This document shows positions 1-20,100 of a stretch of DNA of 26,405 nt, piece after piece. The translations under genes were made by a program, and so were the position numbers. The stretch is taken from positions 1-26,405 of IMG/VR virus record IMGVR_UViG_3300027782_000312; one strand, 5' to 3'. The stretch is from a virus. The notes under the pieces are model-generated. The model saw nothing but the letters and a program-made list of their open reading frames with translations, searched no databases and was not told where the DNA came from. Position 1 is the first letter of the stretch, and the number at the start of each line of letters is the position of its first letter.

Positions 1-72
1 CTCAGCGGAAATCGGGTCATAAATCTTAATATGACCTTCAATATGAATTCCTGTTACGTCTTTAGTCTGCAT
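1..72 (-). CDS. 5' end of an unidentified phage gene (cut by window edge)
   Basis: An ATG at 72 opens a frame that runs out of the window after 24 codons. The fragment begins MQTKDVTGIHIEGHIKIYDP. The start is supported by a purine-rich AAAGAGAG sequence about six bases upstream and by a NATAAATA late-promoter motif at 93-100. From memory, the HIKI-DP opening resembles a small uncharacterised structural or hypothetical protein found near the baseplate genes of marine T4-like phages. That is a recollection, not a search, and the fragment is too short to assign a function. It follows the giant structural gene after a 56-base gap and has its own promoter, so it probably begins a new late transcription unit. 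Confidence 0.7.
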   Translation of the reverse strand, partial: MQTKDVTGIHIEGHIKIYDPISAE

Positions 73-128: not shown

Positions 129-3100
129 TTAATCCTTAAATCCCGAGTACCAAATACCTGGGGTTGCTTTAATAAAACTAGCAATTGATCCGCTATCATC
201 CAATATATTCAATGGATTATTCTTGTTTCCATCCCATTCGCGCCCAGTTACTTGTACTACTGTAATTTTTGTGCCTTGTGTAACAGGGTTAGTTAGTGTT
301 AGTTGGGCGCCAGTTGATGTTACATTAGAAACTGTAAACTCAGCTGGGAAACTTACATCTCCTGCCGGGCTGTAAGGCGATTTGTTTACATCAAAAATGC
401 TGTAAGGTGCCTTCTTCAATCGAACAGTGTCGTTATCACCCCCAACAAACACTTCAAATAATGAATTATACTCAGTAAATCCACTGTTAAGTGTTACTCC
501 AAGAGTTAATTGATGTGAGTTTGAAACGCCGTCAGCTATAATATTCTGCACTAAGGTAGTATCTGTGTAAGGAACTGTTGATCCAGTACCAATATCTTGA
601 ACAAATGTGCCTGCTATGTTGTGTGCATATATTCCAGTACCCAATGTACCTCGACGAATTTGTTTTAGTGTGTTACCAGTTATAGCAAAGAATTCAATGC
701 GTTCTCCGCGTATTTCAATAATACCTGGACGATTAGTAGAAATATTAGGAATGTCAAAATTACTTGCATCTTCAACTACTATTTCAACATCATTCCAATG
801 TAAATCTTTTACTAATCTAGTTTGTTTATCTTTACTTAATCGTTTGTAAATTACACGATTAAGCATGTCTTTAAATTGCATATAAGATATGTTTGAAGAT
901 AACGTGTTATTACCAAATGTCATCATGGTAAATGTATCAGTAATACTAGTCAAATAAGGAGCAAGTTGAATACTAGATTTATCGCCTAGTAAGACGTAAT
1001 CAACGCCTGGAACTAACAATGTACTAAATGTTACATTATTTCTAGCTACCCATACATGTTGCTCGTCTACCACAGGTCTATCTAAACGCATCACACCTCG
1101 ACTTAAATTTTTAAAATAGTGGTACTCTACCGATTCGTTACTAAAAGTTAACGAAGTTTGCAACGTCATAGTAGTACGTTCAATATCTAAAGAAGCATGA
1201 TTATAAGAACTTAAAATTTCAATTTTATCACTACTACTATAAGTTGATTTAAAAGTTATTGTTTTAGCTATGTCATTTACTGTATAGTCTGCGTAAGAAT
1301 TCAAAGTAAGAACTAGTTTCTTACCAATATTTTCATTGTAAACATTGTTCAAAATAGTCACTGTAAGAGTCGATGCATTGACACTGTAATCGGAAGATAA
1401 ACTAAGTTTTTTTCCGTCTATATATACATTAATATCTGAAATTGAAGCAGAGTTTATTGCAAAATCATAAGGCTGTTTAGAAAAATCAGGAGCAAAAGAT
1501 TTAATGTTATTGCCTATTATAAAATAATTTCCACTTGGTGGGCGTAATACAAAATCATTTACAATTACAATCATACTCTGTTCCACTGGAAAACTAGTTT
1601 CAATCGGATTTGTAAGCGAGTATACACGGCTGTTATTACCATTAAATGATTGTCGTTGTGTGACAGCAAAATTTTGTATTATTCCAGAAGTAACAATATA
1701 GTTAACAACATCACCAGCAGCCGGTGGCGCTATAAATCTAAATCCAATTGCATTCGATAACTCGTAAGTATTATCAGTTTTAAATAAAACAGGATTATTA
1801 ACAACTCCATTAATATAAACTAATGATGTTACTGACTTAGACCAATTAGCTTTAGTCACAAACTCAGTTGTAACTCCATCACCTATAAAATAATCATTAT
1901 CTAAAATATTATTTCCGCTTGGACTTAGACTGAAAATACTTACTATCTCATCTTTAGCAGGAGTAGTATTAAGATTAATTGTATTATTTTGAAAATTAAC
2001 TGTATAATCTGATCTATGTTGTTTAATAATAAATCCAACTTTAACAACAAGAGCGTCTGGACTATTCATTTGTTGATTGATTTTAAATGTTGATTGAGAT
2101 CCGTTAGCAACATAGTTATCTACTTTTATTTTTGCACTACCAGAACTACTTTGGTCATAGACTTTAATTGCAAGTGTATCAACTACTTGCCCTGGAACAA
2201 CTTCTTCAGGAGCAGGACTTGATGTTGGCGTAACTAATCCGTCGCCGTCTATAACAATATCATCTGCAGCAATACCTGTTGCTGTTGAATATGCTAAATC
2301 GCCACCAGAAATTGCAGTATCAAAGTCTTGAGTAGAAGGAGCAATAGATCCGTCACTAGTACTCTTGCGTAAAATAAATTCATCACCAGCGTTCACTGTA
2401 TATGAGTTTGGAAGACTTACTATTGTTTTAGGCAAACCATTAACAAATTGCTGAATAGTTGCGGTTGCAGTTGCGGTTGGTTGCCCAGCACTAATAGTAA
2501 TTGTTGGATTATTTAAATATCCGCTGCCTGAATTTGTTATTGTTAATGAATTAACACCGTATATAATTGATATTGTTCCGTTTTGGCCTGATCCGCCAAT
2601 TAATTGTTGATTGTTTTGATCTAATGACCCGGTAAACGAAGTTGACGATACAATTGATAATACGTCAATTGGACCAACTGGCGGAACAGTATTACTAGCA
2701 ACCCGAGTAACTTCAAATATTACAGCACCGTTGCCTGTTACTGTTGTAGATGTGTTGTTGCCAACCAATGCTGTAGTTTGTTTAAGATTAACAGTCCACT
2801 TACTTCCTGCACCATTGCCACTTATACGTCCGGTAATATATGTTATAGCGTTACTTGTTACAGTACCCGATGATGTTTGCGTTGCCGCACTATACATATA
2901 TGTAGAATTATTAACAAATAATGAACTACTTATAGTGTAAACTCCTGTTGAACCAGTTGACCCCGACACTTGTCCAGTAATTGTAATACCAGCAGATACA
3001 CCAGTACCTGCTATTGTTTGACCAAATTCCAATGTTCCACTAGATACTGCGGTTACAACTAATCGATTGCCGGCTGCTGTTCCGGCAATATTTCCAATCT

Positions 3101-6100
3101 TAGCTGTAAAACTTGCTAGAGTAACAACCTTAGCATACGATACGCTAGTTGTTGTAGCATTAGTTACATTATAAGTTCCATTAAATGCCACAGGTGCTAT
3201 GCCAGCAACTGTAATTGGCTGACCAATAGCAAACGGAATATAACTAGATCCTAAAGAAGCAAATGTTAAAGTAACTGTACCAGTAGTAGTATCGCAACTA
3301 GCACCAGTGGTTATAATAGGAGCTTGTCTATGTGCAATTCCAGAGCCTGTGAGTACCATACCAACTTGAATAGTTCCCGAATCAACGGTTCCAACTGTTA
3401 GTGTATTATTTGAAATAATTGAATTACTCATCACAGCTGGTGTAACCCCAGACGACGGTTGAGCAATAAGTATATCACCAACACGATAACCAATTCCATT
3501 ATTATTTCCGTTGTAACTGACATCAATTGCAGTCATTACGGCACTAGCGGTTGCTGTATATAATGGCGCATTTAAGTTGCTAGGACTAACTGTTACTGTA
3601 GGCATTGTTGTATATCTGCCAGCAGTTGTAACTGTTGTAGATAAAACAGGGAACGGTGTTTGCATTATTGCATCGTCGTTCTTTTGATTAACTGTTCCAA
3701 ACTTTGGATCATCTAACCTAACAGGATTAACAGTGCCTGTTATAACAACATTAGTACCAGACGGTGCAACATCTATTAAATTAATAGTGCCGTCATCAAA
3801 AATATTAACTTCTAATGATTCTTTTAATGTTTTAGTAAACACCACAGTTGTATTATCTGGTATAGATTTAAATAACGTTGAGTCAAGGAATAGTATTGAA
3901 TCAATTACGGTTGTAATACTTCCGTGTGTAGTAACAGATGCTAATACACTGCTAGAAAAACTCATGCTACTTGTTGTAGCATCTGTTACTGTATAAATTC
4001 CATTGTATTTGTTTGGGGTAAATCCTGTAATACTAATTAAAGAATTCACAGGATACGGAATTGCTGGCTGCGTTACAAATTTCATTGTAACCTTAGAACC
4101 AGTTCCAGATACAGAAGTAACATTTAAGTTTGTTACAGGATCTAATGTTCCAAGACCAACTTTATTATTAACAGTATCTATTGATTTAATTACAGTACCA
4201 TTAGCAATCGACGGTATTGTTTTATTATTAACTAATCGAGTTATACTTGGACAAGTTATTACATCCGTAACTGATAACCCTGATGTGTTTTTAAGCGTCA
4301 AATAGTTACTGCCTGGATAGTTAAATGTAAACTTTAAAGGAACAACTGCTGGAGTTCCAGATGCTGTTACAGATATAATCATCCCAGGAATGCCTAACGA
4401 ACTATCTCCAACTGATGCAATAACTATTGTAACATCATTGAGAGGAGTTGTGCCGCCAACTGCTGTACCTAATACTTTAATAGTGTGAGGAGCTCCAAAA
4501 TTTAAACTAACTGAATACCCTGTTCCACCGTTAACTACTTGTGCTGAATAACCATTTTCAGTAGTAACTATATTGAATGTAGCCCCCGATCCTGTAATAC
4601 TGTTCTGATTTGTACCAGTTAAGTTAATAAATTGCTTGTTTGCCGGATTACTATCAGGAGCTGCGCTAAGTGTTACTGTCTGACCATCTAATCCCACAGA
4701 TGTTACAGTTTGTCCAGATTCAAATCCGTTACCAATAACACCCATGCCTGGCAATATGGATTTGCCATTTACTGTGGTATTTGCAACTTTTAATGTTGTG
4801 TGATAACTACCAGTAGACTGATAAATTGTAGCTATACTTGTTGTTTCAATATTATTTACAAGTGTTACTACTGGTTTATCTGCGAGAATGTTATATGTAT
4901 ATTTTGTCTGCAACCCGTCCGACACATGCGTATCTATAGTAGTAGATGCTTTATAGATATTAATTTCTGTTCCTAAATCAGCAACATACGGTAACTGATC
5001 AAAGGTATGAACGTTAGCAGCTACTGTTACAAAATAATCTGTAAATTTACTATCAAAATTATCCCACTTGTCGGAGTAGTAAGGAGTTGTTCCCCAGCCT
5101 GTATCTAAACTAAATCCTAAACCGTTAACTTGAACTCCACCGTAATCAACTCCTAACATTAGCTGAGATAACTCTTTGCCAAGTTGACCAGTTACAGGGT
5201 TATAGTAATACTGAATTCGATCTGTTGCTGACATTACAGATTTGTCAATGATGTATTCAACCGTAATAGAACTTCCATTAGCCGGTGCATTTTCAAAAGT
5301 AATTGTGCCAGTATATTGTGTACTGCCGTTAATTTTCTTTTTAACAATAGATAAAGAATATAATTCACGTAGCACAGGAACTCCTGACACGGTTACAATC
5401 GATGTTCCAATTGTGACATCAGGTGCCCATTTTAAAGCAAATTGTATCTTAGAGCCAGTACCAGTAAATGTTTCAGTTTGTTTAATTTGTGTAATGTAAT
5501 AGTTAGAACTAGTTCTATCAAATTTTATTCCTACTAAAGAAGAGCGAACAACACTATTACCTATAATTGCAACAGCTTTTGCAGATGTGCCTCCTATACC
5601 AAGGCCTCCAACAATTGTAATAGTCGGTGCTGCCAAATATCCGCTACCGCTAGATGTTAAAATAATTCTGTTAACAACTCCATTAGCAATATAAGCAGTT
5701 GCTTCTACGCCCGATCCACTGTTGTCAGTGAATACAACAGACGGAGGATTTACATAATTAGATCCACCATCAACTAAAATTATTTCAGTTACCACAAACC
5801 CTACATTGTCTAACCAAAATTTCCAAGGATAATTTTGTATTGCAGAATTATCAGCATCAATTTTACCATTAGCAACTACTGTGTTAAGAGGAACTATTCT
5901 ATCTGTATAAAGAGGTTGTAAATCAAAATCTGAAACAGCAGTTGATCCAATGTCTAAATTCTTATAATTACTAATATACTCTCGTAGTTTAGTTCTATAA
6001 GGTTTAACTTCATTTACATAATTTTCAAAATCAGCAATATTATCTACCGGGTAATTAACTGGCTGATCCAAATTACCAACATTATGTGTTGCTCTTACAA

Positions 6101-9100
6101 AACTGGTTTTAAACGCCCAATCGATAAACACTTGTTCACTATGCGCATACTTAATTGATGCAATAAACAAATCTAAATAATGTTGTTTTAGATTGCCAAT
6201 AAAAATATCATCTTTAATTGTATTTAAAATAATGCGCAATTCAGTTGAAGCAACAACGTCATACCCGTTGTCAAAGATATCTGAATCGTAACCAATGTCA
6301 GTTTCAACAAAGTTGTATAGTTTAGAACTTAGCTGGATAGTTCCATTTTGTATACCTACAACACGATAACTTTGTGTCCAATCAACGCTAGTACTATTGG
6401 CATATTTTTCTAGTAATAGCCAGCCGCTAGCATTAACTGTTGTAACTTTTACAAGTTCGCCTATTGCAGGAGTAATATCATTTAATCCTACAAATGTTGA
6501 TACTAAGTAATCTGCGGAAGAATATTGATTATACCCAGTTGAATACCAGTCAGTATAGTTCCAATATTTTCTAACGTCATATGCTTGAGTTAATATACGA
6601 GACCACACACCTGTGCCTGTAGAAGTTGAGCTAGGAGTCCAAGAATATATGCTCCAGTTTCCATTGGCTTGACTATCGCTGTTTATTAACACACAATAAC
6701 TTCTAACAACAAGTATAGTATTACCTTCATCGTATGCTATACCACCGTTTCTAACAATAACTTCTGTAATTTTTCCATTGGTAATAACTGTAGTAAGTTG
6801 TGCGTTCTTGCCTGTTCCTACAATTTTTACGCTTGGTGCAATACCGTAGCCGCTTCCTTCAAAATCAATATTAATTTTAGTAATTACACCGTTAACAATG
6901 ACCGGGCTTAATTTCGCTTGTCTAAAAGAATTAATATTAATATAATCTAAATCTATAGTAGTATCCTGAATTTGATCATATAAACCAGTAACTGTAGTAG
7001 GCGTTGTATCGTAACTTTCAAGTTTTGTTAAATTATAACCTTCAGTAATTTGATTTTGTTGTAAAGTGATGTTTGCTCGTTCAACAAATTGTTTTAATGC
7101 TTCAATACGATTAACAAACATACTCTGACGTGGGCGGTTCTCAATTCCGTAACGAAGTTTAGGAGGTTGTTTTGTATCTGGCACCGATCGGCCAGATAAG
7201 TCCACGCCGCACAAACTATCAAACCATTTTTTCTCTAATACTACAGGTAAATCAACATTGATGTCATCGCTTATTAAACTCCACTGACTATGAACATTCT
7301 GGTCTGTTTTATCTGTTAACCAATATTCGACAGATAGTACAACATCTTTGTCCGATAGATAAGACCCTGCATTAACAAGACTAAAACTGTCTGTTCCAAT
7401 TAATGCAAGATAAGTGTATGCTTCGCCGCGTGGATTAGCTATCAATTTAGATACTTGTAATGCAGATAAATGTCTGTTTGGAGTAGTAGGTACTACATTC
7501 TTATTCTTTACCCAGAAGTAATATGTGTTTACAAGTTTTTTTGTAATGTTATTATATTTTTGTGTCACCGAGTAAGCATTGTTACCGTACAAACTTGTTC
7601 CACTAATACCTAAAGCTAATCCAGCCGGTGTGTCTGCTTGCTTGTCCCAATCTGCTGGAAGTAGTTTAGTTTGAACCCATTCATAGATATCAACACTTGC
7701 ACCTTGAGCAAGTGTATTCCACGAATTATTTCTATAAGCAACATCGTTTAAATAGGCATTTACAAATTTTGTAGTGCTTAGATTCCACCAAATTTTTCCA
7801 ACTTGTGCAGATGTCCAGAATGTTGTTGCGTCTGAATTAACAGAAGCGTCTGCCGTTGAATAAGAATAGATAGCTGGATCATAATAAGCCTTATATTGTA
7901 TTTCTGCATCAGCTTGGCCTGTTATTTTTCCTTGTCCTGGATCAATTACATCTAAATATTTTAACAATGTTCCAGAAGCCTTGTTATATAAGAACGCTTG
8001 TTTAATTTTTTTGACATCAGCTATTGCTACATTAGTACAATCAACAGTCCAAGACTGGGCGCCTTCAGGTTTAATATAAGCATATAGTAATCCAGATTGT
8101 GCATAAATTCTATCTTGTGCATATGGTGCGCTTACAATAATTTGATTATTACATACTGCAACTCCTGCGCCGTAGCCATCAGTTACAGTATTTCCTGTTG
8201 CTAAACTTTCACTGAATACCCATTTAGTTGCATACATATCATACACATCTACACGGCCACTAGATGGTTGGTTGGTTACAAAATTTGTTGAGTCTTTATC
8301 AAGTGTAGTTGTATTATTGTCAATAGTAGTTAAAGTTGATGTGTTACCATGTTCACTATAAATCACCAATGTTTTATAATCGTTCATAAAAGCAATCTTG
8401 CTTCCAAAACTAGCAAAACTTTGTGGGTACTGATTAGTTATAATATAAGGTTGAACTGTATTATAAGAGTTATTTTTTAATTTGTATACGTTAACAACAC
8501 CTTGGTTATTTAAAGCATAATCCGATATTGCAATATATGTTCCGTCATCAGAAATATCCAAACCTTGGCCAAATGTATTATCAGTTCCAGTAATATTTTC
8601 TAAGAACACAAATAACCCAGTGGTGCTATTACGCTTATAAATTTTTACAATATCAGTATAAGTTGAAATAGCTAGAGTTGAATTATCTTTGCTTATCTTA
8701 ACATCAATACCAATTCCCTGACTAGGCGCTGTGCCGCTAATAGTCTGCTGGCCGCTATCACCATTATAAGTCCATCCCTGTGTAAGAAATTGTATTTCAC
8801 CGTCTGGAGTGGAATCTGGCGGAGCACTTAGCAGTACAGAATTGGTACTAGTTATTTGTATAACATACTGACCTGATGTGAATCCAGTTCCATGTACTGT
8901 CATTCCAAGTTTAATATAAGACACAGGAACTGAGTAATTACTAGATATTACTAGTTTATTTGGTTCTGCAGATGTAAAACTTCCAACTGGGTTATAAAAT
9001 ACAGATACTAAATTAGTTGTTTGATAAAATAAAGTATATACTCGGCCTGCTTCACTGTTGTAACCGCTTGCAGAAATATACAAAGCAGTGTCGCTAAATT

Positions 9101-12100
9101 CTAAATTAGAACCAAAGTGTTCGTAATTAGCAGAATTCAAACTAACAATAGTATCAACTACCGAATAAAAATTATTATTATCTTTCCTGTATAATGTAAC
9201 TACACCTTGCTCTTGGTAGATAGATTCGGTTGCATTAATTTGTTCTGTTGCTGTTCCACTACCTTGGTATGCTATTCCCGTGCCCGGCGTTCCGCTTGAA
9301 CTTGTTGCAGTTGCCGTAAATATTGTGCCAACAGTATTAGGAGTTGCGCCCGTTGCGCCAAGAAGAGCAAAATTTGTTGTTCCTGGAACAGTAACAACAT
9401 ATCTCTTGCCTATTACAAAATTACCGTCAGTAACTGCACCAGTGGCTGTTGCTACAAAAAAATCCCCAATCTGTGGAATTCTAATAGAAGACCAAACTAT
9501 TGGAGTTCCAGTTGCATTAGTTGTTGCAGTTCCAATTAATGTAAAATCAGTAAGGAATCCAGTTTCTCCTAAAGAAGATATTTGATATGTATTTCCTTTT
9601 TCAAAATTTCCACTTTGTACATTATTCCCGTATTCAGTAATTGCAGCTGGAAGATAATTAATTGTTGTCCATGCTGTATTTCCTGATTTAGAAGAATATC
9701 CAGTTATTACTCCTAAAAGAGCTGTTACTGTTAATGTTAAATCGTTTACAATGTCTTCGCCGCCTAGTATACTACCTAGAATAATAAATTTATCGCCAGT
9801 TAGATATCCGGTTCCACCGGAAATGATTCCACCAGTTGGAATACTGTATGATTCTAAATTACCGGCATTGTGTGTTGCTACGTTAAACAACGCACCAGTT
9901 CCCGTAACAACTATACCGCTTACATTTGCTTTTGTTTTAGCTAACAGTACAGAATTTGATTTAGATGACGGAACACCTTGTAAATTTGTTATAGTTAAAA
10001 TACCGTTTACAGAATTTACAGTTCCTACTTTAAAAGTTAAATCGTCACTTGGTGAAACGCCACCTAGTAATGTTCCAAGTACCTTAATAACACTTCCAAC
10101 TTTGTAGCCAACACCACCATATCTTACATTTACCTGGTAATAACCGTTAGTTGGAACCGTTTCACCGTCTACTACTGTAGTAGATGTAGGAACTACAACT
10201 ACGTCAAATATTGCGCCGCTACTAGTCAGGGTTACTGTTCCAGTTACACTAGTATACAACGGAGATATAGCTTTTTCAGTTTTGTAATATCGATTACCAT
10301 ATGTAATAATTGAGCCAGAACTATAAGTGTGCGTTGAATCATACACTCCAGAATTATGCGATGAAAGACTAGATGAAACTGCACCGGCATACTTAGAACC
10401 AACCGCGAGCCATAATCCATCAGGACTAAATTTGATAGAACTAGGCAATAGATTGCCGCTTCCCCACACATTTGGATTTGGAACTACTTGATTTTCCGAC
10501 CAACTAGAAGATGTTCCAGATTTATAATAAACAGTTACCGCGCCAGTATTATCACCTACTGCTAATAAGTCACCTTGTGCAGATACATCTAATATTTTTC
10601 CAAACCCTAGAGAGGTATCAGGGTCTTCATTAAGTATAGCCGATTTAGAATAAACTTGATTATATTTCCAAGTCGCCCAGATACCGTCATTTGGTGCAGT
10701 ATTATCTACCCAAATTAATTCATCGTTACTAAATTCTGAAGTTAGTATAGAACCTATACTATCCATATCAGAAGCACGTTGACTTGTTAAGACAAAAATA
10801 TTAATGCTAGCTTGTTGGTCAAACGGAGGTTTCCAAGAAGGTAAATCTGCTGATACAACAAAGTTATTTAAAGTAACACTTTTAACTTTATAAAATCCGC
10901 TAAATCCTGTTACTTGACTAATACCAATATAAGACCCTTCTACAAATTTAACAATGTTGTCAGACGTTAGTGTTAGTAACTTATTTTTACTATCGTATGT
11001 TACAGATGATATTTTTAAACTAGTATCTGTAAATCTGTACACATTCCAAAATTGAGATGCTGGCAAGTCAAATGTTACCCAAATATAGGCACCGTTTTTA
11101 AAAGTAGTAATATCTTTAGTAGTGAGTTCATCTAAAGATCCTACTGTTACAAAAACATCAGAAGGATTTACATATCCTGCACTTCTTAGTAACGGCTGAT
11201 AGTTGTTAACAGCCGGGAATGGGGTAGAAGAATATCCCTGTGGAGCCAAATAAATGTCATTTGCTGTTTGTTGAATAATTACTGGACTCAATTGTTCCGT
11301 AGTCTTACTGATAAGCAAAACTCCTTGAGGATTATTTTTAAACTTGTCTTCATCTAATACAAATTCAATATTTTCAAATGCTTCCGAAGCGCCGTATTGT
11401 CCTACACGTAATGCCCACTCTTCATAAAATGTTAAACTTTCTTCATTATCAGAACTAAGAACGTTAAAGAGTTTGTTAAGAACATTTTGTGTTCCTTTTT
11501 CTCTAATCATTCCTTGATAAAACTTAAATTCACTAACAGGATCTTGAATAATATTACTTAGATATTGACGCGATTGATATCCAATTAGATGCTGGGCAAT
11601 TTTTTGTTGTTGGGCATCAAAGTTATCAACTTCTAAACTATAAAAATCTGTAAATTGAGTAGCAAGGTTTGTCCAGTTAGGTAAAATTTGACTTGTTGGT
11701 GCTTTAGCTAACTGTGTCCAGCTTGTAGACTCGAACGTACTAGTTCCTGGAAGGAATTTATTAGCACTATAATTATAACTTTGATAGGCAATAATGTCAC
11801 CCATGTTATAATCTTTCCAGGGTTGCCAACTTTTTACAGTTGCAGCATCAAAAATAAATCCCGGGATATCAAGGCCGCCGTACCAGTCAGTAGTTATGTA
11901 ACCACTAACTTTAATTCGTTCTCTTCTATATCCACTAGGAGGATTATATATAATATCATTGAAAATATCTGTGTTATTAATAATAATAACATGTTCATGC
12001 TGTATTAGATAAAAACTAGCGCAATAAATTCCAGCAGAAGTTCTTGGAGTATATGTTACAACATTGCCAGTTCTATAACTATCTAATTGATTTGGTGTTA

Positions 12101-15100
12101 TTGGCGTGCCGTCAACTTTGAATATTTCGTAATTATTAAATTTATTACCAACATCATCAACCACAGTTAGCGAAGTTTTAAAAGATATTGAAGCAGCAGC
12201 AGGGCTTAAACTAATAACGCCTGCGCCTGCAATACTTAATCCTTCTAGTTTATTAAAATCGTCTGGGTTAAATTCAGAACTTGAAGGCACATTTGTTAAT
12301 GCACTATAATACTCGCCTTCATATCTAACAATTGTACCGTAGGCTATTGGTTTATTTGGAATCCAGTCGTTCCACTTGTCTTGTCCAGCACTCCAATTTT
12401 GTGTAGTCCAGAACATAAATTCTTTAGCACTAGTTGACCAATTTGAAACTACTCCCAGATTACTATTGTAAGTGTCAAATGTAAATCCTTGATCTATTAA
12501 ATATTGCTCGTAGCCTAATAAAAAATCAACCACATCTTGTACAGTAGTTAATTCCGTGCCGTATGGCATAGTTAACAATTCAGTCTTATCCCAAGTTGTT
12601 CTGAACGCTGCACTTACACCGCCTGTAACAGGCAACGATGACAATGTTTGAAAAAATCTTGAGTTAAACGTATCATCAGCAGTGTGTTGTACAATCGTAC
12701 TGTAGTATCTTCCGTCATAAACTACAACATTACCAACAAGATACTCTTCACCAGATGTCCACTGAGCGTAACTATGGCTAATACCACCAACATTAATAGT
12801 TGTTCCAGAATTTAAATAATTGTAATATTTAAAATATGGCTGAGTTCTGCTATAACCTTGAATTTGATATCCTGTTTGCAATTTAGTAATTCTAACACCA
12901 CTGTAGGTTAATCTAGTAGCAGGACTAGATGTATTTAAAAACACATCATAGTCTTCTTGAGGAACAAATATACTACCGCTAGTCAGCGGGGTTTTAGACT
13001 CTAACAATAAATTAAACTGGTCTTTATTAGTAAATGATCCAACTCTATAGCTAAGTTGAACTGCCATAGTAGCTAAGTCATTGGCGTAATCGTTGTATGA
13101 TTCAATATTATTACTGAAAATATAATTTAAAATAAGGTCTACAACATAATTAATAATACCAGCTGTTTGTACACGAGTTTTGCTATTATTTAAATTTGGT
13201 AGTTTGATATCGGCCGGGCGCAATCTTAAACCAGTATCTTTATATACAAGCTGGCCTGCACGATTCCTAACAACCCTAGATCTGTCTATCAGTGTACCAA
13301 ATGTTTTAGCAGGAGTTAACAACATTGAAGCAGTTATTACACTAAACGGATAATGACTGCTTCGTCGCCAAGCTGCTTCAACTGGTGCAATATCTCCAAA
13401 CACATAATCACCAGTTGAGCTTGGAGTAATCATACCCTTGGCTAGTCCTGTTGAGTTTGGATCTTTTAAATTGCCATCACTGTCGACAGGGATAGATTTC
13501 ATTAAAAATGGTTTTGCAAACTTAGATGAATAAAATACTGGTTTGCCTGGTTCTCTTATAGCACCCAAACTAATATCTTGCCACATTGGCAAATTGTCGC
13601 TAGTGTATGGCGCAGGGCCGTATAAAGATATCCACCATTGTGGTCTTACACTAAATCCTAGCATTTCCCAAGGACATAAATTCGGTCTATCTGTATCTAA
13701 TATCCAACGATAAATTCCTCTCCAGTAGCCTGGAACATTTTTCGTTCCATCAGGAGTAACACTATTTGAATAATTATAAGTAAACGGATTACTAACATTA
13801 TAATTAATCGGTTTACTAAAATCGCTACCTATTAATCCAGTCCATTTATAAAAACTTGGGGCTAATACGTTATTGTATTCAGATAAACTATAAGCAGTTT
13901 TGCGATTGTAACTAGGAACAATTTCAGTAATATCAAAAATGTCAGGATTGTATTTTACTTTTATGTTATTAAAAATTCTACTTTCTAGTTCTAAAATAAG
14001 AGAATCTCTATAATCATTATATGCTAAAATAGTACTTCCATCGTGTCCTTGGATAACTTTCTTAGGAGTAATTAAAGTTGAATCTACATAAATTTGTGGA
14101 ACATACGCAGGCCACATACCTAATTTAGTAGGAGTACTTGGAACAAAACTACCATCAGTGTTATCGTACTCGTATGTAGTTAATATGTCGCCGTTGGTAA
14201 GAACCACGCTGGCATCAATATAAAAATCTTGCAAATTAAATGTATAATCTTGACCGTGTATTAGTTGTTTGGTAACAGATGTTCCAGTTACTGAACTTGT
14301 TTGATAAATGCAAACTGCTTTATTAGATAATACGTCTAAGTTAAATGCTGTTGATAATGGATATTGTTTAATTCTATAATCAACTACATCTATTTCCTCA
14401 ACTATAGATGCTCCATACGGCACCATGTCGCTAAAATAATACGGAGCAGTAGTAGGATAATTTTCATTTATTTTTTGTAAAATTAAATCAACCATAACTA
14501 CTGGAGGAGCATCGACTCCTAATGATCCAGCAATTGCTATAAACTTACGTTTAAAATTACTATAGTCATCTCTGGCAGTTTCAATTGCCTTAATTACGTT
14601 GGTGGATTGGCTAGTTATGTGATACAAGCTAAGACTTAATGGTCCGCTATGTTGTACAAATTTAGTGCCGTATTGAGTTATATTTCCCAAGTCTCTTAAA
14701 TTACTAGTTCCTGGAAATACTCCAATAAACGTAACTCCGTTAATATCACTAACAGTTCTGTCGTACGACAAATTATCAATGCCGTTTGCATCATCTCCAT
14801 CTTTTGGATTATAAACATTATCTATAATGCTGTTAACATGATCAACTACTTCACCTAGTGTAAATGTTTTAACAACATCATTTAATGGATTATTTTGTAA
14901 ATTAATAGGAATTTCATAATATCCTGTTGAATTTATTGGCTCTGTAGAATATACTTTAAGTGTCACAATGTCTGTTAATTCAACAGGTTGTTTTAAAACA
15001 ACTTGATAATAAGACGGGGTAGTCACTAACGACCAATGATCAATTGCAACTCGTTGTGTATTAATGTACACTCTTACATCGTCTTGATCTAATAGCATTT

Positions 15101-17153
15101 CTTCTGGAGATGCATCAAAAATATCTATATCAAAATTGTTAGTTAAATTAGAATTGTTATAAATTCTTAAAGCAGCTTGTATATAATCAGCCTTGCATAC
15201 TTGCCAACCATTTTGATATAATTCATGTCCTGCATAATCCTGACTTAGCAAATATCCTCGTTCTATCTGCACCGTGATAAGATTTGTTGATTGCTTGTAC
15301 TGAAAAGTGTCTGTAGAAAAATTAAAATCAAAAACAATATCGCCAATATTACTAACATTTTGATACGTTAAAGGAAATCCTAATACAGTATCAGGCAACC
15401 CTGATCCTACTTTGTAAGAAAAAACTGTTGTTCCTAAAAATGTTGAACCGCTATACACACTAGTATTGCCGTAACTAATGCCTTCGTCGTCTACTACGTC
15501 AAACAACGGACGTTGATTTGTATTTGTTTTTTGTTGACTACTAATCCATGTTGTTCCGTCAAACCAATATGTTAAACTTTGATTAACAATCCCAGATTTT
15601 ATAATTGCACACTCATTAACCGCTGGTTGAGAAAGTTCAACCAGGTGAATTTGCTTGCTACCGGTGTTTAAATTTTTTACATCAATAAATTCAACTTGAT
15701 AAATTTTGTTTACTACCACTGGATCAGTATCTGCTGTGACTAAAATTGTATGGCCGTGTACCAATGCTACACCGTCAATACTATATCCAATGGATCCTTC
15801 TATCTTTGAAAAAATATCATCAGTATAATTGTCAATTAAATCAATGTCAGCAATTGCACGAGTTCCAAAATTAAATAATTTTAGATCGGCTGTAAATTCA
15901 ATAATAGGTCTGTTAGCTCTCGAAAGCTGATCTAATGATGGAATACTGTTGTTGTATGTAGCACTAATGTTTATTACATCTTTATGGAACCAACGGTTAT
16001 ATCTGCTCCAAGGATTATGATCTCTACTAGATCTATTAATTGTAATATAATCTTTTTCGCTAGCAAATCCAGTAGCATTACTAAAAGGCATTGATCCAAA
16101 CGGATCACTTGCAAATTCAACTGTTTGATCTACTGTGTAAGGTGTTATGATTTCTAAAACAGATGTTGAAACCAATTTAATAGCCGAACCAACGCCTTCT
16201 ACATAATACTCACCAGTTGCATATTTTACTGGGTTAACATTTCCGCCAAACGAAACTTTCATCCCGTTACTAATACGTGTGCCGTCAGTTAATTGGTAAG
16301 TTGCTTTGCCAAGAAAATCTTTTTCAACATCAATAAAGGTATCTTCTTTGATTGAAAAAATTTCAATGCTTCCGCCTAGGTCAATATCAGATTCGCTTTG
16401 GTAGTATAACACACTTGGCGCATCTAGCGGAACTGTAAATATAATTGATCCACCAGTGACACCGTAATTGTCAATGTTACCAGTGATGTATCGATAAACA
16501 GTTCCAGTAGAACGTTTTGTCATAAAACTAAAAGGATTACCTGGGCTTGTAATATTAAAAGTGTAAGTATGTCCTTTGTAAAGTTTTAAAGGAGGATTTG
16601 GACTAAACCCGTCGGGAGTAAACACATACTGATTGTTTGATCCAACATCCTGCATTGTTACAGTATAAGAACTTGTAATTGCTAAAGGCTGACCGTATAT
16701 TTTAATAGTATCAGGGCCATAAGGAACCCAATAATAATTTTGAAAATTAGTAAACTTGTCCCAATCAATATGGGGATCCCAACTATAAAATTCTTGTTTG
16801 TTTAATCTTGCATGATTAGAGTTGTTGCCGCCAAATACTCCAATTTGATTAATATAATCAATATAATCTTTAAAGAAAGTAATGTTTTTTAAACTATCTT
16901 TAATTACTATGCCTGGCTCTAGTTGATACTGCTGTCTTGTCGAGTCAACCGCAGTGACATATATGTCTTTACCTGTTGCAGCTTTGGCGTTTTCTCTTCC
17001 AATAAACCCATTGACTTTAGTTAAAGTACCAGGCTGATATAATTGATCAAGTGTTGCTTGTAAAAACTTCTTGTTAGGAATTGTTTGATAAAAAGTAGGC
17101 AGTAAATTTGCTGTAAGTCCTGATTTTCCTAGCGGATTTGTTTTGTTAGCCAT
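129..17153 (-). CDS. Giant baseplate/tail structural protein, gp7 position (5674 aa)
   Basis: One uninterrupted frame of 5674 residues, roughly 600 kDa. The start ATG overlaps the stop of the gp6-like gene as TAATG, with GGAG seven bases upstream, so it is probably translated by coupling. The N-terminus (about 10-150: LLPTFYQT, KKFLQATLDQL, DPHIDWDKF) and a Trp-rich stretch (1138-1315: WRGIYRWI, PWEMLGF, YGPAPYT) resemble, from memory, large structural proteins of marine T4-like phages. Around 1830-1950 an FKFYQGMIREKGTQ segment resembles the RSKGTE-type helix region of T4 gp7. Further on are CBM-like repeats (1459-2300), a seven-blade FG-GAP-like propeller (2183-3037), a conserved block (3300-4060), Gly-rich beta repeats (4120-4890) and beta modules (5010-5674). 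T4 gp7 is about 1030 residues, so this would be a huge expansion. A structural virion role is strong; the gp7 equivalence is inferred mainly from gene order. Confidence 0.85.
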   Translation of the reverse strand: MANKTNPLGKSGLTANLLPTFYQTIPNKKFLQATLDQLYQPGTLTKVNGFIGRENAKAATGKDIYVTAVDSTRQQYQLEPGIVIKDSLKNITFFKDYIDYINQIGVFGGNNSNHARLNKQEFYSWDPHIDWDKFTNFQNYYWVPYGPDTIKIYGQPLAITSSYTVTMQDVGSNNQYVFTPDGFSPNPPLKLYKGHTYTFNITSPGNPFSFMTKRSTGTVYRYITGNIDNYGVTGGSIIFTVPLDAPSVLYYQSESDIDLGGSIEIFSIKEDTFIDVEKDFLGKATYQLTDGTRISNGMKVSFGGNVNPVKYATGEYYVEGVGSAIKLVSTSVLEIITPYTVDQTVEFASDPFGSMPFSNATGFASEKDYITINRSSRDHNPWSRYNRWFHKDVINISATYNNSIPSLDQLSRANRPIIEFTADLKLFNFGTRAIADIDLIDNYTDDIFSKIEGSIGYSIDGVALVHGHTILVTADTDPVVVNKIYQVEFIDVKNLNTGSKQIHLVELSQPAVNECAIIKSGIVNQSLTYWFDGTTWISSQQKTNTNQRPLFDVVDDEGISYGNTSVYSGSTFLGTTVFSYKVGSGLPDTVLGFPLTYQNVSNIGDIVFDFNFSTDTFQYKQSTNLITVQIERGYLLSQDYAGHELYQNGWQVCKADYIQAALRIYNNSNLTNNFDIDIFDASPEEMLLDQDDVRVYINTQRVAIDHWSLVTTPSYYQVVLKQPVELTDIVTLKVYSTEPINSTGYYEIPINLQNNPLNDVVKTFTLGEVVDHVNSIIDNVYNPKDGDDANGIDNLSYDRTVSDINGVTFIGVFPGTSNLRDLGNITQYGTKFVQHSGPLSLSLYHITSQSTNVIKAIETARDDYSNFKRKFIAIAGSLGVDAPPVVMVDLILQKINENYPTTAPYYFSDMVPYGASIVEEIDVVDYRIKQYPLSTAFNLDVLSNKAVCIYQTSSVTGTSVTKQLIHGQDYTFNLQDFYIDASVVLTNGDILTTYEYDNTDGSFVPSTPTKLGMWPAYVPQIYVDSTLITPKKVIQGHDGSTILAYNDYRDSLILELESRIFNNIKVKYNPDIFDITEIVPSYNRKTAYSLSEYNNVLAPSFYKWTGLIGSDFSKPINYNVSNPFTYNYSNSVTPDGTKNVPGYWRGIYRWILDTDRPNLCPWEMLGFSVRPQWWISLYGPAPYTSDNLPMWQDISLGAIREPGKPVFYSSKFAKPFLMKSIPVDSDGNLKDPNSTGLAKGMITPSSTGDYVFGDIAPVEAAWRRSSHYPFSVITASMLLTPAKTFGTLIDRSRVVRNRAGQLVYKDTGLRLRPADIKLPNLNNSKTRVQTAGIINYVVDLILNYIFSNNIESYNDYANDLATMAVQLSYRVGSFTNKDQFNLLLESKTPLTSGSIFVPQEDYDVFLNTSSPATRLTYSGVRITKLQTGYQIQGYSRTQPYFKYYNYLNSGTTINVGGISHSYAQWTSGEEYLVGNVVVYDGRYYSTIVQHTADDTFNSRFFQTLSSLPVTGGVSAAFRTTWDKTELLTMPYGTELTTVQDVVDFLLGYEQYLIDQGFTFDTYNSNLGVVSNWSTSAKEFMFWTTQNWSAGQDKWNDWIPNKPIAYGTIVRYEGEYYSALTNVPSSSEFNPDDFNKLEGLSIAGAGVISLSPAAASISFKTSLTVVDDVGNKFNNYEIFKVDGTPITPNQLDSYRTGNVVTYTPRTSAGIYCASFYLIQHEHVIIINNTDIFNDIIYNPPSGYRRERIKVSGYITTDWYGGLDIPGFIFDAATVKSWQPWKDYNMGDIIAYQSYNYSANKFLPGTSTFESTSWTQLAKAPTSQILPNWTNLATQFTDFYSLEVDNFDAQQQKIAQHLIGYQSRQYLSNIIQDPVSEFKFYQGMIREKGTQNVLNKLFNVLSSDNEESLTFYEEWALRVGQYGASEAFENIEFVLDEDKFKNNPQGVLLISKTTEQLSPVIIQQTANDIYLAPQGYSSTPFPAVNNYQPLLRSAGYVNPSDVFVTVGSLDELTTKDITTFKNGAYIWVTFDLPASQFWNVYRFTDTSLKISSVTYDSKNKLLTLTSDNIVKFVEGSYIGISQVTGFSGFYKVKSVTLNNFVVSADLPSWKPPFDQQASINIFVLTSQRASDMDSIGSILTSEFSNDELIWVDNTAPNDGIWATWKYNQVYSKSAILNEDPDTSLGFGKILDVSAQGDLLAVGDNTGAVTVYYKSGTSSSWSENQVVPNPNVWGSGNLLPSSIKFSPDGLWLAVGSKYAGAVSSSLSSHNSGVYDSTHTYSSGSIITYGNRYYKTEKAISPLYTSVTGTVTLTSSGAIFDVVVVPTSTTVVDGETVPTNGYYQVNVRYGGVGYKVGSVIKVLGTLLGGVSPSDDLTFKVGTVNSVNGILTITNLQGVPSSKSNSVLLAKTKANVSGIVVTGTGALFNVATHNAGNLESYSIPTGGIISGGTGYLTGDKFIILGSILGGEDIVNDLTLTVTALLGVITGYSSKSGNTAWTTINYLPAAITEYGNNVQSGNFEKGNTYQISSLGETGFLTDFTLIGTATTNATGTPIVWSSIRIPQIGDFFVATATGAVTDGNFVIGKRYVVTVPGTTNFALLGATGATPNTVGTIFTATATSSSGTPGTGIAYQGSGTATEQINATESIYQEQGVVTLYRKDNNNFYSVVDTIVSLNSANYEHFGSNLEFSDTALYISASGYNSEAGRVYTLFYQTTNLVSVFYNPVGSFTSAEPNKLVISSNYSVPVSYIKLGMTVHGTGFTSGQYVIQITSTNSVLLSAPPDSTPDGEIQFLTQGWTYNGDSGQQTISGTAPSQGIGIDVKISKDNSTLAISTYTDIVKIYKRNSTTGLFVFLENITGTDNTFGQGLDISDDGTYIAISDYALNNQGVVNVYKLKNNSYNTVQPYIITNQYPQSFASFGSKIAFMNDYKTLVIYSEHGNTSTLTTIDNNTTTLDKDSTNFVTNQPSSGRVDVYDMYATKWVFSESLATGNTVTDGYGAGVAVCNNQIIVSAPYAQDRIYAQSGLLYAYIKPEGAQSWTVDCTNVAIADVKKIKQAFLYNKASGTLLKYLDVIDPGQGKITGQADAEIQYKAYYDPAIYSYSTADASVNSDATTFWTSAQVGKIWWNLSTTKFVNAYLNDVAYRNNSWNTLAQGASVDIYEWVQTKLLPADWDKQADTPAGLALGISGTSLYGNNAYSVTQKYNNITKKLVNTYYFWVKNKNVVPTTPNRHLSALQVSKLIANPRGEAYTYLALIGTDSFSLVNAGSYLSDKDVVLSVEYWLTDKTDQNVHSQWSLISDDINVDLPVVLEKKWFDSLCGVDLSGRSVPDTKQPPKLRYGIENRPRQSMFVNRIEALKQFVERANITLQQNQITEGYNLTKLESYDTTPTTVTGLYDQIQDTTIDLDYININSFRQAKLSPVIVNGVITKINIDFEGSGYGIAPSVKIVGTGKNAQLTTVITNGKITEVIVRNGGIAYDEGNTILVVRSYCVLINSDSQANGNWSIYSWTPSSTSTGTGVWSRILTQAYDVRKYWNYTDWYSTGYNQYSSADYLVSTFVGLNDITPAIGELVKVTTVNASGWLLLEKYANSTSVDWTQSYRVVGIQNGTIQLSSKLYNFVETDIGYDSDIFDNGYDVVASTELRIILNTIKDDIFIGNLKQHYLDLFIASIKYAHSEQVFIDWAFKTSFVRATHNVGNLDQPVNYPVDNIADFENYVNEVKPYRTKLREYISNYKNLDIGSTAVSDFDLQPLYTDRIVPLNTVVANGKIDADNSAIQNYPWKFWLDNVGFVVTEIILVDGGSNYVNPPSVVFTDNSGSGVEATAYIANGVVNRIILTSSGSGYLAAPTITIVGGLGIGGTSAKAVAIIGNSVVRSSLVGIKFDRTSSNYYITQIKQTETFTGTGSKIQFALKWAPDVTIGTSIVTVSGVPVLRELYSLSIVKKKINGSTQYTGTITFENAPANGSSITVEYIIDKSVMSATDRIQYYYNPVTGQLGKELSQLMLGVDYGGVQVNGLGFSLDTGWGTTPYYSDKWDNFDSKFTDYFVTVAANVHTFDQLPYVADLGTEINIYKASTTIDTHVSDGLQTKYTYNILADKPVVTLVNNIETTSIATIYQSTGSYHTTLKVANTTVNGKSILPGMGVIGNGFESGQTVTSVGLDGQTVTLSAAPDSNPANKQFINLTGTNQNSITGSGATFNIVTTENGYSAQVVNGGTGYSVSLNFGAPHTIKVLGTAVGGTTPLNDVTIVIASVGDSSLGIPGMIISVTASGTPAVVPLKFTFNYPGSNYLTLKNTSGLSVTDVITCPSITRLVNNKTIPSIANGTVIKSIDTVNNKVGLGTLDPVTNLNVTSVSGTGSKVTMKFVTQPAIPYPVNSLISITGFTPNKYNGIYTVTDATTSSMSFSSSVLASVTTHGSITTVIDSILFLDSTLFKSIPDNTTVVFTKTLKESLEVNIFDDGTINLIDVAPSGTNVVITGTVNPVRLDDPKFGTVNQKNDDAIMQTPFPVLSTTVTTAGRYTTMPTVTVSPSNLNAPLYTATASAVMTAIDVSYNGNNNGIGYRVGDILIAQPSSGVTPAVMSNSIISNNTLTVGTVDSGTIQVGMVLTGSGIAHRQAPIITTGASCDTTTGTVTLTFASLGSSYIPFAIGQPITVAGIAPVAFNGTYNVTNATTTSVSYAKVVTLASFTAKIGNIAGTAAGNRLVVTAVSSGTLEFGQTIAGTGVSAGITITGQVSGSTGSTGVYTISSSLFVNNSTYMYSAATQTSSGTVTSNAITYITGRISGNGAGSKWTVNLKQTTALVGNNTSTTVTGNGAVIFEVTRVASNTVPPVGPIDVLSIVSSTSFTGSLDQNNQQLIGGSGQNGTISIIYGVNSLTITNSGSGYLNNPTITISAGQPTATATATIQQFVNGLPKTIVSLPNSYTVNAGDEFILRKSTSDGSIAPSTQDFDTAISGGDLAYSTATGIAADDIVIDGDGLVTPTSSPAPEEVVPGQVVDTLAIKVYDQSSSGSAKIKVDNYVANGSQSTFKINQQMNSPDALVVKVGFIIKQHRSDYTVNFQNNTINLNTTPAKDEIVSIFSLSPSGNNILDNDYFIGDGVTTEFVTKANWSKSVTSLVYINGVVNNPVLFKTDNTYELSNAIGFRFIAPPAAGDVVNYIVTSGIIQNFAVTQRQSFNGNNSRVYSLTNPIETSFPVEQSMIVIVNDFVLRPPSGNYFIIGNNIKSFAPDFSKQPYDFAINSASISDINVYIDGKKLSLSSDYSVNASTLTVTILNNVYNENIGKKLVLTLNSYADYTVNDIAKTITFKSTYSSSDKIEILSSYNHASLDIERTTMTLQTSLTFSNESVEYHYFKNLSRGVMRLDRPVVDEQHVWVARNNVTFSTLLVPGVDYVLLGDKSSIQLAPYLTSITDTFTMMTFGNNTLSSNISYMQFKDMLNRVIYKRLSKDKQTRLVKDLHWNDVEIVVEDASNFDIPNISTNRPGIIEIRGERIEFFAITGNTLKQIRRGTLGTGIYAHNIAGTFVQDIGTGSTVPYTDTTLVQNIIADGVSNSHQLTLGVTLNSGFTEYNSLFEVFVGGDNDTVRLKKAPYSIFDVNKSPYSPAGDVSFPAEFTVSNVTSTGAQLTLTNPVTQGTKITVVQVTGREWDGNKNNPLNILDDSGSIASFIKATPGIWYSGFKD
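250..2130 (-). repeat. Chain of C-terminal beta modules in the giant protein
   Basis: Residues about 5010-5640 contain several units of similar plan: a short polar opening with F or Y (VANGSQSTFKI near 2110, FIGDGVTTEFVT near 1880, FNGNNSRVYSL near 1640, ADGVSNSHQL near 520), a V-I-NG hairpin, then a closing strand such as IGFRFIAPPAAGD. This is the pattern of tandem beta-sandwich modules in phage tail proteins. Residues 5450-5512 hold a distinct unit with IIEIRGERIEFFAI and IRRGTLGTG, which I recall as recurrent in marine T4-like structural proteins. Unit boundaries are approximate and sequence identity between units is low. Confidence 0.5.
2440..4810 (-). repeat. Low-complexity Thr/Ser/Gly beta-repeat region
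   Basis: Residues about 4115-4905 of the giant protein are rich in T, S, G, V and N and contain several degenerate repeat families. GxG(F/V)xxG units occur near 4125-4182 and 4682-4752. FNGTYxVT/YNGIYTVT units occur near 4349-4418 and 4615-4685. GGTGY and GSGYxxxPTITI units occur near 4208 and 4868. The composition is unlike the conserved blocks on either side, which use many more aromatic and charged residues. Such regions usually form repetitive beta structure in adhesins and tail fibres. The reading frame is intact throughout. Confidence 0.55.
8045..10610 (-). other. FG-GAP-like seven-blade beta-propeller segment
   Basis: Within the giant protein, seven blade-like motifs follow the plan FGxxxxxSxDGxxxAxxxxxxxxGxVxVY: GFGKILDVSAQGDLLAVG (10605), SPDGLWLAVGSK (10435), FGSNLEFSDTALYISASG (9120), VKISKDNSTLAIS (8705), FGQGLDISDDGTYIAIS (8580), FGSKIAFMNDYKTLVIYS (8410) and YGAGVAVCNNQIIVSAP (8180). 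Closing strands are GAVTVYY, GVVTLYR, GRVYTLFY, IVKIYKR, GVVNVYK, GRVDVYD and GLLYAYI. Seven blades is the number in integrin-type propellers. Blade two is interrupted by about 395 residues, about 100 residues separate blades three and four, and blade six carries about 35 extra. Blade assignment is by eye. Confidence 0.6.
9230..10345 (-). repeat. Nested repeat cassette inside propeller blade two
   Basis: This insert of roughly 370-395 residues separates the inner strands of propeller blade two from its closing strand (GVVTLYR at about 9200). It contains a CBM-like unit (SSGSIITYGNRYYKT, 10260-10327), two copies of a G-G-x-G-Y...LG-x-x-LGG unit (10040-10150 and 9740-9840), and two copies of an F-x-x-G-x-x-Y...F-x-x-(I/L)G-x-T unit (about 9500-9620 and 9270-9430). 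All are motifs I recall from phage and bacterial surface proteins. The frame passes through without interruption. Confidence 0.55.
10255..12780 (-). repeat. Four CBM5/12-like aromatic repeats
   Basis: Four spaced segments of the giant protein share the plan W-x(5-8)-Y-x-x-G-x-(I/V)-(V/I)-x-Y-x-x-x-Y-(Y/S). They are WTSGEEYLVGNVVVYDGRYY (from 12770), WIPNKPIAYGTIVRYEGEYY (from 12369), WKDYNMGDIIAYQSYNYS (from about 11822) and YSSGSIITYGNRYY (from 10327, without the leading Trp). This resembles the small chitin-binding fold CBM5/12, where exposed Trp and Tyr stack on sugars. The resemblance is by eye over about 20-40 residues per unit, and sugar binding is inference. Confidence 0.5.
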
Positions 17154-20100
17154 TAATTTGCTCCAGATGCTGCGCTAATTATATTTTGTGATGTTATTAC
17201 AGAATTCAATGCTGTTCCTGTTACTGTTCTTAAGTTAGTAGAAGTTAAACCTGTTACTATAATAATGTTGTCAGTGGTTGCACAACTAACAAATAATTTA
17301 TCACTTGGGCATTTTATTTCAAATAATCCGCCAAAGAAAGAATCTGATTTAGACGGAACAATAACAAAGCTAATCACATCGGGAGATACCTGAGTCAATA
17401 CATACGTTGAAAGTTCAGAGAAATAAAACGTATCTCCAAAATCCCAATTGTCAAGTGCAAAAAATCTATTAATTGCCGATAATATTCTTGATGACACATC
17501 TGCACTAGATACTGTACTAGCAGGATTAATTACAACATTAAAATTAGCTTGTAAATCTGATGTAGCGGCTGCGCCAAATAATAAAGTGTAACTTACAGGA
17601 TGATAAATTACTTCATCACTTATAGATTTAATTAAATTTAAATTAGGACTTAACATTACATTCAATTCGTCAGAGCTAGGAGGTAACGGCTCGCTACCGT
17701 CTGTTGGAGCACCGGATGCAATCCATAATCTAAATGAAGTATTATAATCATTAGTTAATACATACAAGTCCATTAAGTTGCTTGGGCCTGGGTCAATCCT
17801 ACTGTCGTAATCAGCACTATGTATGTATTGAAATTTTAAATTGTCTCTACCTAAATATACAATATAGTCAAGCGTAGGAATAAATTTACCAGTTGCTGCA
17901 TTGTATTTTGTAACCAGTCCAGACGAGAAATAATACTTTCCATTAACAGGATTTGTTAACGTGAAGAATACTGGGCCGGTCAATGGATTATTAGAAACAT
18001 AACGATAATCTTCTTGGCCTTGACTAATGGAGTATAATTCTTGAACAATGTACTTTTCATAAGGATCGCTAGAACCAACATGCACAATGTCTGTGAATAG
18101 TTGTGGATTATCAACTACTCCAGTATTAGTACTATCAGCAAAACTCAATACTATTTTAGTCGGGTCCACATATCCATCTTCGCCAACAAACTCGCCAACA
18201 ACCTGCCATGGCATGTCTTTAGTATAAGAAGCATTACCACCGGCTGATAACGGATCTGTATTAATACCTAAAATTTTCACGGTGTCTGTTACAGTCGACG
18301 TTAGCACGGTATCGTAAATTTTAACATTGGTATCAAAATAGAAAGTAAGTTCTTGGTCACTTTCAAATACATAACGTAATTGACGTGAAGTTATTGTGTA
18401 ATACTCGTTGTCTGTAGTAAACAGTAAGAACCAACTTGAATCTAATTTCAACGGGCTACTACTTCCTTGATTACTTAAACTAAATGCGCCTGTTTGATTT
18501 AGGTTGTTTTCAAAAATTATTTGCCAACTTTGTATTGTAACATCGTAACGCAGGCCAAACGGAACATTTGAAAAAATCAAATCAATCATTGTGGTAATAA
18601 TTGACGAACTAAGAGTAGTGGCAAACTTAGGTATAATCTGTGTTATTTTAGAACCGGTTGGTATTACATCATCTAGCACAATTGGTCCAAACCCAGTTGA
18701 TAATACACCAGTATCGCTTGCTGTACCGTCATCTTTCACTGATGTAACTTGCGCCCATATATAGGTTGTGCCGCCTTTAGGCAATTGACCAGCAGGGAGT
18801 GCTTTTAATATATTTTGATTTAATGTGTCAAAGTAGTACCCAGTAGGTGGCAAAAATTTAACCAATGCATTTGTAGTAAAATATTTTAAATCGGTATACG
18901 TATAACTTCCAACTGCATATTTTTTGTTACTGTTAGTATCATACACGTAGCCACTAACTGTATTGCTATCTGTTGTTACACTGTGCCATGCAACATTTAA
19001 ACTAGTTGTAAGATAATCAACAAACTGTGTATAGTAAAAATCTCTTAAACCCGGTGTTCTAAGAATGTTATAAACTGAATTGTAAATTACATTTTGAATA
19101 TCAGTTTGATTAGCATACGTAAAATTTGTAGTTGTAGTAAACAAGTCTTGGTATAACACACCATCATCGGCAAACAAATTTGTACTTGAATACTTTCCAG
19201 TTGGGTCTGTTAAATCAAAATAACGACTTATACCGCTACTAGCTCTATTCAATGCTTTAATTTTTGCAACGGCAGTTGAAGCAGATAACGGACTAATATT
19301 ATAATCCTCACCTGTAATCATTCTGTTTTGTGTATAATATGCTTGAGGCGCATTTGTTTTAATACTAGCATTTGATTCTGTTGCGGTAGCATTGGCTACA
19401 GACGTTGCTAAACTCAAACTAAGAGTTAATACTTCTGATTGATTTGACGAGCTTGTATATGGAATATTAATTATAACATTAACAATATCTGTAGGATTAA
19501 TTGTGTATGTTATGCCATTGCTAACTCTATAATAAACTCTAAAATTACCTTGAGGTAATTTTCCAAACACACCATCACTAAAACTTAAACTAACCGCATC
19601 GTTAGCTCTAGAAATAATACTATAAATTGTTTTAATACTGCTGCTTAAACTATTATAGATAATATTGTTACCAGTCAGGGCAGGAACTTGTGTCCATAGA
19701 GTGTCTTCTAAACCTGTGCTTTGATTTAAAGAATACAACCACACATCGGTATCGTTAATATTTTGTGATTCAATATCAAGTACTTGATTACTTGTAGGCT
19801 GGCTTACATTAAATGTTCCCTGATTCAATGTTCCTTGAACAAAATTAAAGAAAAAACCTGTAGACGGACTACCTGCACCGCGGCCGTCATCTTTATAAAC
19901 ACAAGCAATACTATTTCCTACTTTAGGAGCTTCTTCATAAATTCTTTCTTGGCCGGCAAATGTAGTACTGGTAATTTCAAAGACTGTGTTTCGACCAGAA
20001 ATAGATTTGCTAAAAGTATAAATTGGAATATCTGTATTTGTGCTGTTGAATCTATACTGTGCCGTTGGGATACCGTAGATACTTGCTTGATCTACTGGGT

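Follow-up and report, generated by a model that had tools for sequence, protein, structure and literature searches.

The window analysed here is a 26,405-base (26.4-kb) viral fragment from IMG/VR, a single metagenomic contig, taken over its whole length. Its genes lie on the minus strand and are listed in order of transcription, from a 334-aa structural gene through the gp53-like, 742-aa structural, gp5-like, gp25-like and gp6-like genes to a 17-kb giant, with the start of one further gene behind it:

25298..26302 (-), 334-aa virion structural protein (phrog_12050)
24993..25295 (-), gp53-like wedge gene, 100 aa (phrog_7145; PF11246 above cutoff)
22763..24991 (-), 742-aa virion structural protein (phrog_11190)
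21099..22763 (-), gp5-like hub / OB-domain gene, 554 aa (phrog_13211, PF04717)
20662..21096 (-), gp25-like wedge gene, 144 aa (phrog_261, phrog_43)
17153..20614 (-), gp6-like baseplate wedge gene, 1,153 aa (phrog_10646, E 2.3e-294; phrog_219)
129..17153 (-), giant gene of the phrog_10938 family at the gp7 position, 5,674 aa, 618 kDa, predicted pI 4.9
1..72 (-), beginning of the next gene, truncated where the contig stops; its first 24 residues are those of a 202-aa gene in a relative contig (L003)

The giant frame is genuine. On translation it runs from ATG to TAA for 5,674 codons without an internal stop. Stop codons occur 446 and 738 times in the other two sense frames, and chance does not account for an open frame of this length (ln P of no stop about -423 at a GC content of 34.7%). 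The two nearest homologues stand full-length in other contigs, at 5,693 and 5,658 aa, which rules out an assembly accident. Furthermore, dN/dS between the giant and its nearest relative is 0.04-0.17 in all 12 segments of 475 codons, and 0.04-0.34 in every such segment when three relatives are compared. The giant has therefore been selected as a protein along its whole length. Translation, stop counts, homologues and low dN/dS together bear out the uninterrupted frame of 5,674 residues read in the first-pass annotation. The TAATG overlap with gp6 described there also stands: at the junction (...AAATTAATGG) one base is common to the gp6 TAA stop and the giant's ATG, and the upstream gene matches the gp6-like phrog_10646. 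We conclude that the 17-kb gene is real and encodes one tail-baseplate protein of a freshwater relative of jumbo phages.

The 202-aa gene directly follows the giant in L003 and matches phrog_11259 in L087; its homologue in PA5oct, gp357, is annotated as seen in virions. In some relatives (L091 13816-15558 (+) and L160 12562-13428 (+)) the giant and the 202-aa gene are separated by an additional gene, whose N-terminus is of the T4 gp9/gp10 type; the window and L003 do without it. PF07880, the gp9/gp10-type N-terminal domain, falls just below cutoff in the gene next to the giant in two freshwater relatives. Such a domain in the following gene fits a docking role of the giant.

A family of giant virion proteins

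Successive slices of the giant match phrog_10938 (E 1.6e-137, 5e-146, 1.9e-57 and 4.7e-20) and cover most of this profile, which has 3,324 positions and is named only 'virion structural protein'. A scan of viral contigs confirmed at least 591 relatives, of which the best 80 were kept. Full-length homologues were built by joining overlapping pieces that belong to the same contig. This gave 12 distinct full-length homologues of 4,520-5,693 aa, to which we add 53 complete frames of 2,608-5,001 aa (a few of which are duplicates; cultured phages included), so that the family comprises about 65 complete frames of 2,608-5,693 aa. BFVD matches are mainly uncultured family members and Atu_ph07. The cultured members are:

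RaK2 ORF070, 3,326 aa
CBB_236, 3,340 aa
121Q gp582, 3,323 aa
PA5oct gp355, 3,857 aa
SCTP-2 gp140, 3,807 aa
Vibrio phage 2.275, 3,771 aa
Atu_ph07 gp180, 4,449 aa

The giant directly follows a gp6 homologue in RaK2, CBB, 121Q, PA5oct, Atu_ph07 and Vibrio 2.275, as it does in the window. In SCTP-2 the gene preceding the giant (L084 8609-17899 (+)) encodes 3,096 aa, and the best gp6 match lies about 80 kb away and spans two annotated genes; SCTP-2, used as scan query, retrieved no matches. Records of the cultured members label the protein hypothetical or only 'structural protein'.

In the relative L063 (10001-21914 (+)) the giant frame stops after 2,988 aa and another of 953 aa or more comes after it, either a gene split or a sequencing error. 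Genomes of relatives also have a second giant ORF of 3,292-5,826 aa, in L338 7519-19899 (+), L340 554-11275 (+) and L341 5690-15565 (-); its start, M(A/T)(K/Q)Q(I/V/L)IDIGVQGNDGTGDSIRESFRKVNENF, looks like that of a baseplate-anchored tail fibre. A 153.7-kb relative contig (L339 3920-18595 (+)) holds a 4,892-aa ORF that opens with repeats resembling CBM5/12.

Orthologues of the giant are present in virions. Mass spectrometry detected CBB_236 in CBB particles (21 peptides, 7.7% coverage; PMC5259590), and the PA5oct record annotates gp355 as detected by ESI-MS/MS. The 382-kDa gp245 of phAPEC6, a phage nearly identical to 121Q, was found in virions with 17 peptides and is listed beside a 131-kDa wedge protein (PMC7247149); its size, this placement and the near-identity of the two phages suggest that it is the phrog_10938 orthologue. 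An unusually large baseplate had been expected from a protein of this size. This is not borne out in relatives with the 3.3-kaa version, as the baseplate measures 35 nm in RaK2 (PMC3622015) and 36 nm in CBB (PMC5259590).

Modules and insertion zones

An occupancy profile from an alignment of 18 family members separates the core that the freshwater clade retains (aa ~1-2250, ~2700-4100 and ~4900-5674) from two zones of large insertions (aa ~2300-2650 and ~4100-4900). Homology to the cultured members covers mainly aa ~1-2000 and ~3000-4050 of the window giant, which is 1.2-2.3 kaa longer than they are by way of the two insertion zones. The following features were recognised:

16356..16676 (-), aa 160-266, domain matching phrog_677 (E 4.6e-12; tblastn 37% identity to ACG-2014d and P-SSM2)
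13554..14156 (-), aa 1000-1200, strongly conserved block with a PWEMLGF..P.WW signature (alignments; present in the aligned jumbo-phage homologues)
12678..12764 (-), aa 1464-1492, CBM5/12-like (chitin-binding type) module (PF02839, E 5.4e-8, above cutoff)
11406..11546 (-), aa 1870-1916, candidate gp7 core motif (FKFYQGMIREKGTQNVLNKLFNVL..; the standout of 113 tiled blocks; weak reciprocal HMM hits)
7974..10646 (-), aa ~2170-3060, propeller-like (WD40/FG-GAP type) repeats (Pfam matches across homologues; occupancy profile)
6702..6947 (-), aa 3403-3484, GSGY-type repeat (phrog_2885, phrog_438; common to cyanophage gp7-/gp8-family proteins)
5574..5792 (-), aa 3788-3860, GSGY-type repeat (phrog_701, 19630, 460)
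2454..4856 (-), aa ~4100-4900, second main insertion zone (occupancy profile, composition)

The domain at aa 160-266 also occurs in the 'baseplate wedge tail fiber connector' proteins of cyanophages and in a proximal tail fibre protein of P-SSM2. PF02839 scores 33.2 bits against a cutoff of 26.2 at the CBM5/12-like module; the region also has a profile match to a chitinase A1 domain, and Foldseek returns chitin-binding domains. Sequence pattern suggests more copies near aa 1650, 1777 and 2277, and by their signature these modules may bind carbohydrate. The propeller-like zone varies by insertion and contains the first main insertion zone, while the second is Thr/Ser/Gly-rich and missing in many relatives. 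The first GSGY-type repeat is 38% identical to the S-CAM7 giant (E 2e-7).

AlphaFold predicts mixed alpha/beta and beta-rich structure for aa 960-2010 (mean pLDDT 78) and aa 2960-4060 (mean 76). Profile searches of the PDB found only chitin-binding modules in aa 1000-2060 and one match of about 70 residues, to a depolymerase tailspike, in aa 2960-4060. The extra length comes from CBM5/12-like, propeller-like and Gly-rich repeat modules and the two insertion zones. Occupancy profile and module signatures agree with the earlier proposal of a conserved core plus extra modules. They also mark where modules that probably bind host surfaces are inserted.

Position, motif and rival readings

Gene order places the giant at the gp7 position. 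The window and cultured jumbo phages have the order gp25-gp6-giant, the one that places gp7 in T4 and in cyanophages, and T4 continues gp6-gp7-gp8 with gp6 and gp7 overlapping. A separate gp7 elsewhere in the genome would have spoken against this assignment. The T4 gp7 profile found none in 14 long relatives (nine relative contigs and five cultured jumbo phages); as a control, it finds T4 gp7 and, via the core only, the P-SSM2 giant gp7. Likewise, gp8 was not detectable in jumbo relatives (records behind L185, L192, L118, L154, L038, L039, L023, L071, L064 and L081-L085), where phrog_438 matches only the GSGY repeat.

One short motif in the giant resembles gp7. We tiled the protein into 113 overlapping blocks of 150 residues and compared these with gp7-core profiles. 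Blocks over aa ~1870-1916 lead against the cyanophage gp7-core profile (26.3 vs 20.9) and against a combined profile that includes S-PM2-type sequences (30.6 vs 21.8); against S-PM2-type gp7 cores the block at 1860 scores 30.3 and the next independent block 19.3. A KG(T/I) register is kept wherever these blocks lead. With T4 alone, and with the first combined profile, they are not the top blocks. Reciprocal HMM matches of the candidate core return to these positions at E ~0.01, and reversed controls come close to that level. Pairwise comparison with cyanophage cores gives E 3e-4 to 2e-3 and an hhalign probability of at most 23%, against 97% and 92% in the positive controls, in which cyanophage gp7 was compared with T4 gp7.

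Longer comparisons did not retrieve gp7. The Pfam gp7 domains V, VI and helical (PF21427/PF21456/PF21428) have no match in the giant, phrog_964 (the T4 gp7 profile) has none in the giants, and neither BLAST nor hhalign of long segments aligned T4 gp7 with the giant. PHROG searches of slices, which had been proposed as a check, matched phrog_10938 and linked none of 53 core segments to a gp7 family. Segment-wise structure prediction, proposed likewise, returned no gp7 by Foldseek for two AlphaFold segments, in which the candidate core helices are modelled at pLDDT of only 33-49; the matches were CBM domains and small phage-tail domains, with T4 5iv5_B only at E 0.45. In cyanophage genomes, the A5 profile finds only the CBM-like module and not the core. 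Matches to PHROG 2885, 438, 701, 19630 and 460 were rejected as signs of gp7/gp8 homology, as they fall on the mobile GSGY repeat. Thus, the claim that the giant is a gp7 stands for its position and for the lack of another gp7 in the 14 relatives, but homology is not established. Resting on a motif of some 30-50 residues, it is likely but unproven.

We consider it probable that the giant is a gp7-type wedge organiser with built-in surface-binding modules, from a freshwater jumbo phage akin to RaK2, PA5oct and Atu_ph07. By analogy with T4 gp7, about six copies would be present, one per wedge. Its conserved parts, aa ~1-2050 (where the KGT helical motif lies, near aa 1890) and aa ~3000-4050, would bind the gp6-gp25-gp53 inner baseplate, connect it to the periphery and signal attachment to the sheath. 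Modules like the added ones typically bind glycans or proteins; here the CBM5/12-like modules, the propeller-like repeats and the Gly-rich beta repeats would point away from the baseplate, decorating it with sites that bind surfaces or glycans and dock fibres. On the same analogy, about 3.7 MDa of the baseplate would be giant protein, compared with 0.7 MDa of gp7 in T4.

The giant might instead be a peripheral adhesin or fibre-network protein in the gp7 gene position, while the enlarged gp6 (1,153 aa) builds the wedge core together with other proteins and gp7 itself is lost or unrecognisable. Beta-rich, adhesin-like modules do fill much of the giant, gp6 is nearly twice its T4 size, and Pfam, PHROG and Foldseek do not establish gp7 homology. 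However, the giant sits at the gp7 place of T4 and cyanophages, its core of about 3,000 aa is kept across phages of very different hosts, unlike adhesins, and the KGT motif is the only block that resembles cyanophage gp7 cores. We therefore regard this reading as unlikely. It is very improbable that the 618-kDa chain is a precursor, cleaved after full translation or kept only in part in the virion: virion peptide coverage of the orthologues is only about 8%, but no cleavage signal is known, and conservation and purifying selection reach the C-terminus. That the giant, although read from a single metagenomic contig, is an assembly chimera or a misread frame can be dismissed, being already refuted by independently assembled contigs of equal length and order and by purifying selection throughout.

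Comparison with cyanophages and T4

Among the unnamed virion proteins of jumbo phages this is one of the largest and most widespread, and the wedge-organiser reading offers it a testable function. It also points to the growth of gp7 into proteins of 3-6 kaa in more than one T4-like lineage. More tentatively, one 618-kDa chain per wedge could combine gp7 with some T4 periphery proteins, including gp8, and carry its own glycan-binding array. If so, T4-like phages have enlarged gp7 into a single-chain baseplate periphery on at least two occasions, among the cyanophages and among the jumbo phages.

Giants at the gp7 position are also found in cyanophages:

syn9 gp101, 6,076 aa (from record coordinates)
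P-SSM2 gp7, 5,195 aa
P-HM2 gp7, 4,454 aa
S-CAM7, 4,314 aa
S-PM2, 3,048 aa

At 5,674 aa the window giant is indeed one of the larger phage proteins, as first annotated, but it is not singular: 2.6-5.7 kaa is normal in its family, and cyanophage proteins at this position reach 5,195 and 6,076 aa. Proteins of thousands of residues at the gp7 position are the norm in the jumbo group and in marine cyanophages, and the window giant is a large new member. Such proteins are already in public records (those of P-SSM2 and P-HM2 are annotated gp7 'baseplate wedge initiator') and are not treated as a class in the literature we found.

The cyanophage giants likewise stand in the order gp25-gp6-giant, are of similar size, and have GSGY and CBM5/12-like modules in common with the window giant, although overall homology is absent by BLAST. 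P-SSM2, S-PM2 and S-CAM7 have their gp7 core close to the N-terminus, whereas the candidate core of the window giant lies near aa 1890. In most cyanophages gp8 then follows; it is not recognised in the jumbo relatives. T4 gp7 (1,032 aa, phrog_964), a monomer of 119 kDa present in six copies per tail, forms the connection between the inner wedge and the periphery of gp8, gp9 and gp10 (PMC3004832). It is 5.5 times shorter than the giant, and its Pfam domains are undetected there. Nevertheless, T4 gp7 likewise follows gp6 with an overlapping stop and start, and has a KG(T/I) helical motif that is linked to the giant's candidate motif through the cyanophage gp7 profiles.
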